This document shows positions 17,761 through 19,695 of a stretch of DNA of 64,000 nucleotides, one piece after another. The DNA is from Halobacterium hubeiense (GTDB lineage Archaea; Halobacteriota; Halobacteria; Halobacteriales; Halobacteriaceae): assembly GCF_001488575.1 (NCBI RefSeq), contig NZ_LN831302.1:1674001-1738000 (forward strand). The letters run 5' to 3'. The position numbers and the translations under genes are program-made. The notes beneath the pieces are model-generated. The model made no database searches and was not told the DNA's origin. It saw only the letters and a program-made list of their open reading frames with translations. Position 1 is the first letter of the stretch. Each line of letters begins with the position of its first letter.

Positions 17761-17940
17761 CTACTCGCGCTTGTGCGTGATGTAGCCCGCGATACGGTTG
17801 CGGACCGGCTTCGACTCGACGTTCGTGAGCTCGGTGACGGCTTCCTTGTTGTGCTCGAAGTCTTCGCGGCTGAACGCGTCGGGGTATCGCTCCATGAGGA
17901 TGTTCCCCGTCTTCTTGACGTAGTCGGGCTTGATGGCCAT
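17761..17940 (-). CDS. rps17e: 30S ribosomal protein S17e
   Basis: The 59-residue protein starts [13 protein letters not shown], continues [19 protein letters not shown] and ends [13 protein letters not shown], the complete archaeal S17e, a small-subunit protein shared with eukaryotes but absent from bacteria. A TATA-like TTTTAAC at about 17964-17970 sits some 25-30 bases before the ATG, fitting a leaderless mRNA. Composition is basic, unlike most neighbours, as expected for an rRNA-binding protein. Confidence 0.97.
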
Positions 17941-18040
17941 ACGGTCTGGTTCATTCGCCGCGCGTTAAAAGGATTCGTTTCGCGAGCACGACCCGGTTTC
18001 TGGAAGGGAATCTGAGTGAGCGACGTTAACGACGTCAACA

Positions 18041-18145
18041 CCTCGAAAGCCCCCGTGCTGCCGACTCCCGGGACTCGCTGTGCTCCTCGGCCTAGGGCCT
18101 GCGGTGCTTGCGTCGTCCGGGTTCGTCGGCAGCACGGCCCCTTTC
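18041..18145 (-). ncRNA. Inverted covarying element, copy A
   Basis: The element is flanked by CCTCGAAAGCCCC and GCCCCTTTC, with a perfect 12-bp stem (18054-18065 with 18125-18136) around a 59-base interior. Read on the minus strand it matches copy B (18249-18349): same flanks, same GCACCGCAG and CGAGGAGC-CAGCGAG cores, but stem bases differ at five positions, each with a compensating change. The strand is assigned only by analogy to copy B. It could be a structured RNA or a transposon-derived palindrome. Sequence 17941-18040 holds the rps17e promoter. Confidence 0.6.
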
Positions 18146-18248
18146 TGTCCACCCAGTTACCGGCTGACCAACCGGCTACGGGTAGGACTGAGCGAACGCT
18201 ACGCGTTCGCGAGGGTCGGAAGACGAACGTAGTGAGTCTTCCGGGACT

Positions 18249-18349
18249 GAAAGGGGCGAGGCTGTAGACGAAGGCAGGCGAAGTAAGCACCGCAGCGTAG
18301 CGAGGAGCGCAGCGAGCCTCCCGAGTCTACAGCCTCGGGGCTTTCGAGG
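18249..18349 (+). ncRNA. Inverted covarying element, copy B
   Basis: GAAAGGGGC (18249-18257) and GGGGCTTTCGAGG (18337-18349) flank a perfect 12-bp stem (18258-18269 with 18325-18336) around a 55-base interior with AAGCACCGCAG and GAGGAGCGCAGCGAG. Between A and B lie two more hairpins (18192-18211 region and 18217-18241). No credible protein is encoded in 17941-18380. Confidence 0.6.
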
Positions 18350-18380: not shown

Positions 18381-19364
18381 CTACTCCGAGTCGCGCTCGA
18401 ACGCGCCGGCGACCAGCAGCGGGAAGACGAGCGTGGCTTCGGCCTCGATCTGGGTGTAGTTGGTCTCGGTCTCGTCCTTGATTTTCCCCCACGAGACGGC
18501 TTCCTCGGGCGGCGCGCCCGAGAGGGAGCCGTCGCCCTCCATGCCGGTGGAGATGTAGACGGCGTACTCGGCGCCGCCGCGGAAGAGGTTCGTCATGATA
18601 GCGTGGTGCTTGGGGACGCCGTCGCCGACCGCGATGAGGCCCGTGGTGTCCGCGAGCAGCCCTTCCTCGATGAGCGTGTCGTAGTCGTCGACGATTTCGA
18701 TGCCGACGTCGGAGTCGTAGCCCTGCCGGTAGTAGTAGAGGAAGTTCCCGATTTCGGCGTCCGTGAGCGCCGGGCAGAACACGGGGACGTCCTGGTCGGC
18801 GGCGTTCTTGAGGACGGAGTCCTCGTCGTCTAAGGTTTCGCCGAGTTCCTTTGCGAACTCGGTGGGCGTGCGGACCTTCTCCTCGGCGAAGAAATCCTCG
18901 AAGAAGTCGTAGAGGTACTCCTCCAGCCAGACGTAGCGGTCCGAGGGCACGAAGATGTTGCCGAGGCGGTTGATGCCCTCCTCGCGGAGCGCGGCCTCGT
19001 CGGCGTCCCACTCGCCCATCTTGAACGGCTTCGCGGTCTTGATGACGTCCTCGGTCAGGGAGCCGGAGGTGGTGATGATGACGTCGACGTGGCCCTCGCG
19101 GACGAGGTGCGCGACGACCTCCCGGAGCCCCGAGGAGATGATGTTCGACGTGAACGTCAGGTAGACGGTGGCGTCGTCGTCCTGCATATCCCGCACGATG
19201 TCGACGCCCTCCGCGAGATGCGTCGCCTGGAAGCCCGTGGTCGCGTACGCGTCCAGCATCTCGAAGAAGTCGAAGTCGCCGCGGAAGTCGTAGCCGCGGA
19301 CGTCCTCGGTGCCCAGCTCGCCGTCCGAGCCCGGGAGGACGTTCTCGCGTGTCTCGTCGGTCAT
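18381..19364 (-). CDS. dys: Deoxyhypusine synthase
   Basis: The 327-residue enzyme transfers a butylamine group from spermidine (or agmatine in some archaea) to a Lys of initiation factor aIF5A. Seen are SNIISSGLREVV, ITTSGSLTEDVIK, the PALTDAEIG and VGDGVPKHH blocks, and EEAVSWGKIK, which carries the catalytic Lys. The start at MTDETREN was chosen because the upstream extension is Arg/Ser-rich and a TATA-like TTCAAATTCG lies 24-33 bases before this ATG. Deoxyhypusine synthase is essential in archaea studied so far. Confidence 0.95.
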   Translation of the reverse strand: MTDETRENVLPGSDGELGTEDVRGYDFRGDFDFFEMLDAYATTGFQATHLAEGVDIVRDMQDDDATVYLTFTSNIISSGLREVVAHLVREGHVDVIITTSGSLTEDVIKTAKPFKMGEWDADEAALREEGINRLGNIFVPSDRYVWLEEYLYDFFEDFFAEEKVRTPTEFAKELGETLDDEDSVLKNAADQDVPVFCPALTDAEIGNFLYYYRQGYDSDVGIEIVDDYDTLIEEGLLADTTGLIAVGDGVPKHHAIMTNLFRGGAEYAVYISTGMEGDGSLSGAPPEEAVSWGKIKDETETNYTQIEAEATLVFPLLVAGAFERDSE

Positions 19365-19443
19365 GCCACCGACTAGTGGCCGCGCGAATTTGAACGTCCC
19401 GACATGCGACCGGCTACGAACGTGGTGACCCCTCAAAACAGAA

Positions 19444-19695
19444 CTACGCGTTGCGGTCGATCCACTCACAGAACGCGTCGAATTCACGGGCGCCAGCACT
19501 CTCCGCGATACCGCGGAGCGTTCCCGTTCGCAGTTCGTCGTGCAGCGGAACGGTCACCTGTCGCTGGTCGTCGTCGTTCGTCGGATGCTCGTAGTACAGC
19601 TGCGCGTGGTCGCCGGTCGTTCGACGCCACTCGAAGCCGCCGTGGTTGACGAGAACGCGCACGACTTCGGCGCCGGAGAACGTTCGCCGCCCCAT
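19444..19695 (-). CDS. hicA: HicA-like mRNA interferase toxin
   Basis: The 83-residue protein has the HicA double-stranded-RNA-binding-like fold: FSGAEVVRVLVNHGGFEWRR, then GDHAQLYYEHP with the catalytic-type His, then VTVPLHDELRTGTLRGI. HicA cleaves mRNA when free of HicB. It begins one base after the stop of the antitoxin gene, giving the antitoxin-first order. A C-terminal WIDRNA tail is present. The GDH motif replaces the commoner GSH; activity is likely but not certain. Confidence 0.88.
   Translation of the reverse strand: MGRRTFSGAEVVRVLVNHGGFEWRRTTGDHAQLYYEHPTNDDDQRQVTVPLHDELRTGTLRGIAESAGAREFDAFCEWIDRNA

Follow-up and report, generated by a model that had tools for sequence, protein, structure and literature searches.

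A haloarchaeal family of short intergenic repeats in which a fixed frame holds exchangeable hairpins of preserved pairing

Short intergenic palindromes are common in prokaryotes. In the attC sites of integrons, it is the folded strand that sets function, the stem sequence being variable and the extrahelical features conserved. REP sequences, with the related REPIN and BIME and the associated RAYT, are hairpin-forming palindromes of 20-40 bp with GTAG or CGTC tags, located between genes as singles or as head-to-head pairs (PMC3733652, PMC2817692). In haloarchaea, the PATEs are heterogeneous palindromes without target duplications, whose ends resemble IS605-type transposons, and SMR-A (HqIRS42/43/55) of Haloquadratum are small mobile repeats lacking a transposase, which insert within palindromes without target duplication, their inverted repeats targeting PATEs and IS605 ends (PMC3119063). 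The family described here was recognised from a locus of Halobacterium hubeiense; no account of it was found in the literature under open licence, and a description elsewhere is possible.

The locus lies in the window (the whole stretch of 64,000 nucleotides that was analysed) and consists of two units, A and B, which lie in the 440 bp that separate the start of rps17e (ribosomal protein S17e; 17761-17940, minus strand; Pfam PF00833, E 2e-11) from the end of dhs (deoxyhypusine synthase; 18381-19499, minus strand; Pfam PF01916, E 2e-99). The start of rps17e is 96 bp, and the stop of dhs about 31 bp, from the composite. The flanking genes code for aspartate-semialdehyde dehydrogenase, ribosomal protein S17e and deoxyhypusine synthase, in agreement with the earlier note that no transposase is near, and re-reading of the sequence gave the same positions for the two inverted copies: the A hairpin at 18045-18145 on the minus strand and the B hairpin at 18249-18345 on the plus strand. 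Written in folding orientation, the 12-bp arms are CGTGCTGCCGAC/GTCGGCAGCACG in A (minus strand) and GAGGCTGTAGAC/GTCTACAGCCTC in B (plus strand). They differ at five of the 12 positions with all 12 pairs intact in each copy, so that every stem difference is compensated, as had been claimed. Against dinucleotide shuffles, the purine-rich strands fold with z values of -6.3 (A) and -4.0 (B), none of the 200 shuffles being as good.

Unit A (18037-18145, minus strand; assigned from the sequence, the fold and an R1 match of 110.9 bits, E 4e-21, in the H. hubeiense genome) is composed of the outer end AACACCTC and a class I hairpin, which runs in minus-strand reading from GAAAG (18141-18145) to CTTTC (18045-18049). 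In the predicted fold, the 5' arm of the stem (18125-18137, minus strand) pairs with the 3' arm of 13 bp (18053-18065, minus strand; CCGTGCTGCCGAC on the plus strand), and the class I core between them, GACGCAAGCACCGCAG ... GAGGAGCACAGCGAG (18066-18124, minus strand; alignments A1/A2), carries purine internal loops. Unit B (18244-18349, plus strand; R1 match of 113.8 bits, E 9e-22, in the same genome, and fold) consists of GGACTGAAAGGGGC, a class I hairpin and GGGGCTTTCGAGG. Its predicted stem arms are located on the plus strand at 18257-18269 (5' arm, CGAGGCTGTAGAC) and 18325-18337 (3' arm), and its GGG/GGG internal loop (18254-18256 and 18338-18340, plus strand) belongs to positions that are each 93-97% conserved, and not paired, in 101 copies. 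The 5' arm of B, referred to as type 1, is the commonest arm found (12 of 92 copies).

The two units are separated by the composite centre, CTGTCC-ACCC..CCGGCTGACCAACCGG..GGGTAGGACT (18146-18187), and by an extra module within the 5' frame of B (18188-18248, plus strand), with GGACTGA direct repeats on either side; the spacing between units is normally 38-43 bp (38 composites). Read from the sequence, this module contains two plus-strand hairpins, GCGAACG-CTACG-CGTTCGC (18192-18210) and GGAAGAC-GA-AC-GTA-GT-GA-GTCTTCC (18218-18242). The extra-module tail of B recurs in other copies and in genome G004. Many single units carry, within the 5' frame, a two-hairpin module with GGACTGA direct repeats on either side (for instance L282:2150-2220), and in G004 this module adjoins an emptied hairpin slot. 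In other genera (L101, L104, L109, L110, L114, L115 and L117), GGCTGGGGAGGNGTGAGG recurs about 40-60 bp upstream of single units, with further small hairpins ahead of it.

The A/B pair is one composite locus of a family of short non-coding repeats of haloarchaea. The unit of about 125 bp reads GGGYGGGACT-GAAAG-GGG-[hairpin]-GGG-CTTTC-GAGGTGTT, with the fixed ends GGGYGGGACTGAAAGGGGC ... GGGGCTTTCGAGGTGTT around the hairpin. A blastn search with B detected about 20 relatives in the H. hubeiense genome, nearly all on the main chromosome, and a covariance model built from 13 copies detected 22 copies at E < 1. The search of haloarchaea with such a model, which the earlier note had proposed, gave positive results for 12 of 13 Halobacterium genomes, with up to 53 copies in members of the genus other than H. 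hubeiense (the genome without elements being G006), and for 99 of 146 genomes and 42 of 56 genera of the order Halobacteriales. In a phylum-wide sample, the matches listed were all inside this order. A frame-only pattern, in which 76-106 free bases separate the two frame sequences, matched at least 120 contigs of GTDB, and among the matches listed 80 of 80 were haloarchaeal; the 14 matching plasmid records were likewise all haloarchaeal, with no annotated feature listed beneath the matches. A viral or phage origin was rejected, because the frame pattern had no match among IMG/VR viral contigs and the B unit had no blastn match among phages. In our searches, the family is restricted to Halobacteriales, where the genera that carry it include Halobacterium and Haloarcula, of which laboratory strains exist.

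Two unrelated classes of hairpin, class I with the core AAGCAC..GCAGCGAG and class II with GGTCGTCTCG..GAGCGACC, sit in the same frame in several genera, and chimeras with a class II base and a class I tip are present in the H. hubeiense genome. Neighbouring units were arranged head-to-head, minus then plus, in 42 of 42 cases, most of them separated by 38-43 bp. Within a composite, one hairpin differed from the other in 38 of 38 cases (largest identity 0.71), a difference that is suggestive at most, random partners exceeding 0.75 in only 6%. In a few copies, the hairpin core is flipped relative to the frame, as if the arms had recombined (H. hubeiense C1:2350659-2350766; G008:C1:204347-204451). 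Modules are also nested, further hairpins being located in the tip of one hairpin (H. hubeiense C1:479415-479735; G008:C1:417091-417595) and, in G008, in one arm as well.

The pairing seen at the locus is a property of the whole family. In the 101 copies collected order-wide, 96.7% of the pair cells held standard pairs, a share that fell to 70.9% on shuffling and to 35-40% on sliding of the partner; two-sided changes were present in 28 of 32 pairs, and two-sided cells numbered 716 versus 217. Since this set came from a model that rewards pairing, the test was repeated on the frame-only GTDB set, comprising 88 distinct interiors with 75 distinct 5' arms. At least nine of the 12 arm pairs were formed in 76 of these 88 interiors, while arms drawn from different copies reached 10 pairs in only 3%. 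Among 92 frame-bounded segments, 88 had at least nine arm pairs, and two of the four low scorers were merely shifted by an indel in the frame. The arms of 12-13 bp are nearly free in sequence and mutually complementary. Outside the paired columns, the core shows mostly more than 90% conservation at AA, at GA/GA and at the single A positions in the 101 copies. The homologues are paired, and the frame is absent from the TnpB genes of H. hubeiense; mostly unpaired homologues, or exact remnants of one known insertion sequence, the two outcomes that the earlier note had named as speaking against its proposal, were thus not found.

The mismatches that do occur in paired columns are unequal, with G·T outnumbering A·C by 76 to 28, and the arms of the independent frame-only set gave 36 against 8 (p 3e-5). 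This excess is reversed on the opposite strand, and therefore it is the pairing of the purine-rich strand that is preserved; some of the asymmetry may come from strand-biased cytosine deamination. Variation that keeps pairs and asymmetry between strands, which together mark a conserved single-strand structure, were thus both found, and the order-wide pairing, the conserved unpaired loops and the excess of G·T over A·C altogether favour a single-strand fold, in line with the conserved structure in RNA or single-stranded DNA that had been proposed for the locus. Complementary arms would also arise, with the fold itself unselected, if replication switched templates and copied an arm from its partner (quasi-palindrome correction), a mutational mechanism that is known and is promoted by long inverted repeats, and the inversion of the core inside the frame in some copies fits it. 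Such correction, however, should erase internal mismatches, whereas GGG/GGG and most of the G·A-rich purine loop positions are 80-99% conserved in the 101 copies, and a symmetric correction does not predict more G·T than A·C, even if deamination could contribute. Passive palindromes of this kind are thus considered very unlikely.

The tips of the units are mini-hairpins such as GC-GA-AC-GTA-GT-GA-GC. The form NNNN-GA-NN-triloop-NN-GA-NNNN was found 146 times in 2 Mb of G008, of which 92 had a GNA loop, whereas a second-order Markov control yielded 12 and 0; for the H. hubeiense genome, the counts were 35 and, in control, 4. No such excess was found for loops of four or five. Mini-hairpins of the form NNNN-GA-NN-GNA-NN-GA-NNNN are dispersed genome-wide with many different stems and are often clustered (G008:C1:1-2,000,000; 464 kb of H. 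hubeiense), pointing to widespread mini-hairpins, of a kind known mainly from the chemistry of DNA oligonucleotides, as a neglected trait of haloarchaeal genomes. In DNA, d(GNA) loops on two G-C pairs yield mini-hairpins that are exceptionally stable, resist nucleases and contain a non-canonical G-A pair (PMC4686876). The apical structures of class I are poorly predicted by standard DNA energy parameters, which may handle tandem G·A motifs poorly. Being stable as DNA mini-hairpins, the GNA caps favour, without proving, a fold of DNA. On the indirect grounds of the cap sequence and the inconsistent orientation relative to genes, the folded single strand is probably DNA.

RNA hairpins usually carry GNRA or UUCG loops, and the GNA triloops of the caps belong to neither type. 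This bears on the alternative that the hairpin works in transcripts, in 3' UTRs or intergenic read-through, as a terminator or as an RNA-stabilising or protein-binding element, its pairing being selected in RNA. An RNA element accords with the pair-preserving variation, with the tolerance of G·T and with the location of many units about 30-60 bp past stop codons; in Haloferax, some sites of transcription termination have a hairpin upstream of them, and an in vivo test of one hairpin gave termination of 59% of transcripts (PMC7237163). Yet visual inspection of the 5' end revealed no A+T-rich promoter-like sequence, the head-to-head pairs put opposite strands at one locus, and the co-direction with the upstream gene in the first set (27 of 35) was gone in an independent second set (23 of 52, p = 1), so that an orientation with respect to 3' UTRs was dropped. 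Membership in a known RNA family was rejected, no Rfam covariance model matching at the gathering score and the only hits being at chance level (E 0.7-1.7). On this balance, an RNA element is rather unlikely, and a fold of DNA is preferred.

At the site between rps17e and dhs, related species share the frame and the centre, and the hairpins differ. Slot A of G008 holds the same hairpin as in H. hubeiense, and its slot B one of class II; in G010, the A hairpin is of class II and the B hairpin a relative of type 1; G011 and G003 have other hairpins; and in G009 this site is without an element. Between H. hubeiense and G008, the flanks of the slots are 80-96% identical, and among 10 slots, three hold the same hairpin (rps17e A, 1587 kb A and, if additional insertions are disregarded, 479 kb A), two belonging to one composite are inverted, and five hold a different module. 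The inverted composite, at 1490 kb, is turned as a whole with its centre included: B of H. hubeiense resembles A of G008 at an identity of 0.89, and the other hairpin has diverged or been replaced. At the slot at 69 kb, the locus-specific frame variant GAAAGGGCGAG is kept in both species and the hairpin is of class I in one and class II in the other, indicating replacement within an old frame and not fresh insertion in the same place. Judged by these sequence comparisons, the difference between A and B is that of two distinct hairpin modules in one frame, and not of five compensated substitutions. The statement of the earlier note that the stems have changed together therefore describes the outcome correctly but not the path, since whole hairpins are exchanged between related species in the same slots.

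Hairpins are also shared between loci. Within a single genome or genus, some unrelated loci contain interiors that are 95-99% identical, as do three loci of Natronococcus pandeyae. In such near-identical copies, the identity runs from GGGYGGGACT to ..CTTTCGNGGTG or ..GGGGCTTTCGNGGTG and then stops, and its stopping at both ends defines the unit boundaries. In G004, one slot consists of GAAAGGGGCTTTC only, a clean loss between GGGGC direct repeats. Only a handful of empty frames were matched in 195 genomes, and some of these matches are full units in which an arm happens to extend the pattern; because of this rarity, empty frames were rejected as insertion targets and are more likely products of deletion. 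Five species carry the element at G008:1912559, where nothing but a short gap is found in G002, G005 and G012. One H. hubeiense unit (C1:285705-285905) is at an inversion breakpoint relative to G008, where its flanks map about 57 kb from each other (C1, about 147,227 and 204,466) and in opposite orientation. The family, its structure, the folding strand and the exchange of hairpins are held with high confidence.

According to a simple gene finder of our own, which relies on codon composition, roughly nine in ten units fall outside any gene; the distance from the unit edge is about 75-115 bp to a start codon and 30-60 bp to a stop codon. These distances are tight, but the two flanks add up to lengths like those of ordinary intergenic regions, for which reason insertion at a fixed distance from promoters was rejected; the placement is read as avoidance of promoters and terminators. 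The same placement, almost strictly intergenic and at those distances upstream of starts and past stops, would suit elements of chromosomal architecture that the host maintains as supercoil sinks or as boundaries or barriers between transcription units, their exchange being gene conversion in a polyploid archaeon. Many sites are common to the genus, and one unit is at an inversion breakpoint, as a host function would allow. Against this, the position is already explained by avoidance, given flanks of ordinary intergenic length, and presence varies among related species, one Halobacterium genome having no element at all; a role in host architecture is regarded as quite improbable.

The reading towards which we lean is that the units are non-autonomous mobile or converting DNA modules that act via the folded strand. 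As such modules they would persist and spread, being recognised by the shape of the folded single strand, namely the fixed ends and a stable hairpin with a GNA-capped tip, and not by the arm sequence. An old frame could acquire a new hairpin when copies recombine via their conserved ends or, alternatively, when a hairpin is lost through the GGGGC direct repeats on either side and one then re-enters. The exchange may be explained by homologous recombination that converts one copy by another, and copying to unrelated loci would require either that units insert or that frames already in place be converted. Among very close strains, no case of fresh insertion was detected, and no target duplication of a whole unit was established. 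Orthologous sites are often occupied in several species, indicating that movement to new sites is infrequent. MITEs carry the terminal inverted repeats of an autonomous insertion sequence and duplicate their target; the composite, by comparison, has outer inverted ends, AACACC..GGTGTT, with no clear target duplication, and no autonomous partner was found among the TnpB and Y1 families searched.

Association with TnpB, which the earlier note had suggested for checking, was not borne out: in H. hubeiense, 20 of 20 TnpB loci are without the frame or a convincing hairpin match, and IS605/TnpB ends or omega RNA were rejected for this species. Genes for Y1 transposases are absent from the element-rich genomes G003, G009 and G010, two are present in the element-free G006, and those of H. 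hubeiense are away from all units; REPs driven by RAYT or IS200 were therefore rejected, the Y1 genes being uncorrelated with the elements. The TnpB and Y1 families searched yielded no candidate for the mover enzyme.

Among the described systems, the SMRs and PATEs of Haloquadratum and the bacterial REPs come closest to the family, which resembles them in size class, location and orphan status; it shows none of the testable features that define REP or PATE, and is distinguished from SMR by description. As with REP, REPIN and BIME, the units are intergenic hairpin-forming palindromes that occur singly and as head-to-head pairs, but they are about 125 bp long instead of 20-40 bp, and have neither a GTAG or CGTC tag nor an associated Y1 transposase. 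With PATEs and the near-terminal palindromes of IS605-type elements they share the haloarchaeal host, the heterogeneity of the palindromes and the lack of clear target duplications, but PATE ends resemble IS605-type transposons, whereas no TnpB locus of H. hubeiense carries the frame. SMR-A are alike in being haloarchaeal and non-coding, of about 110 bp, with prominent inverted repeats and no known transposase (PMC3119063); here, in contrast, the arms are free and only the frame and the loops are fixed, a distinction drawn from the description of SMR-A and not from its sequence. A fixed frame, arms that are free but paired, conserved mismatches and a swappable hairpin, all order-wide, provide an unusually clean natural experiment on selection of a folded strand. 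More tentatively, the family may represent clade-wide, shape-recognised modules of single-stranded DNA, in which fixed ends and interchangeable hairpins with tandem G·A and GNA caps would be copied between loci by a not-yet-known enzyme, the arm sequence being irrelevant and only the fold being transmitted. By analogy, the principle would be the same as that of attC sites, operating here with no integrase, gene cassettes or integrons.
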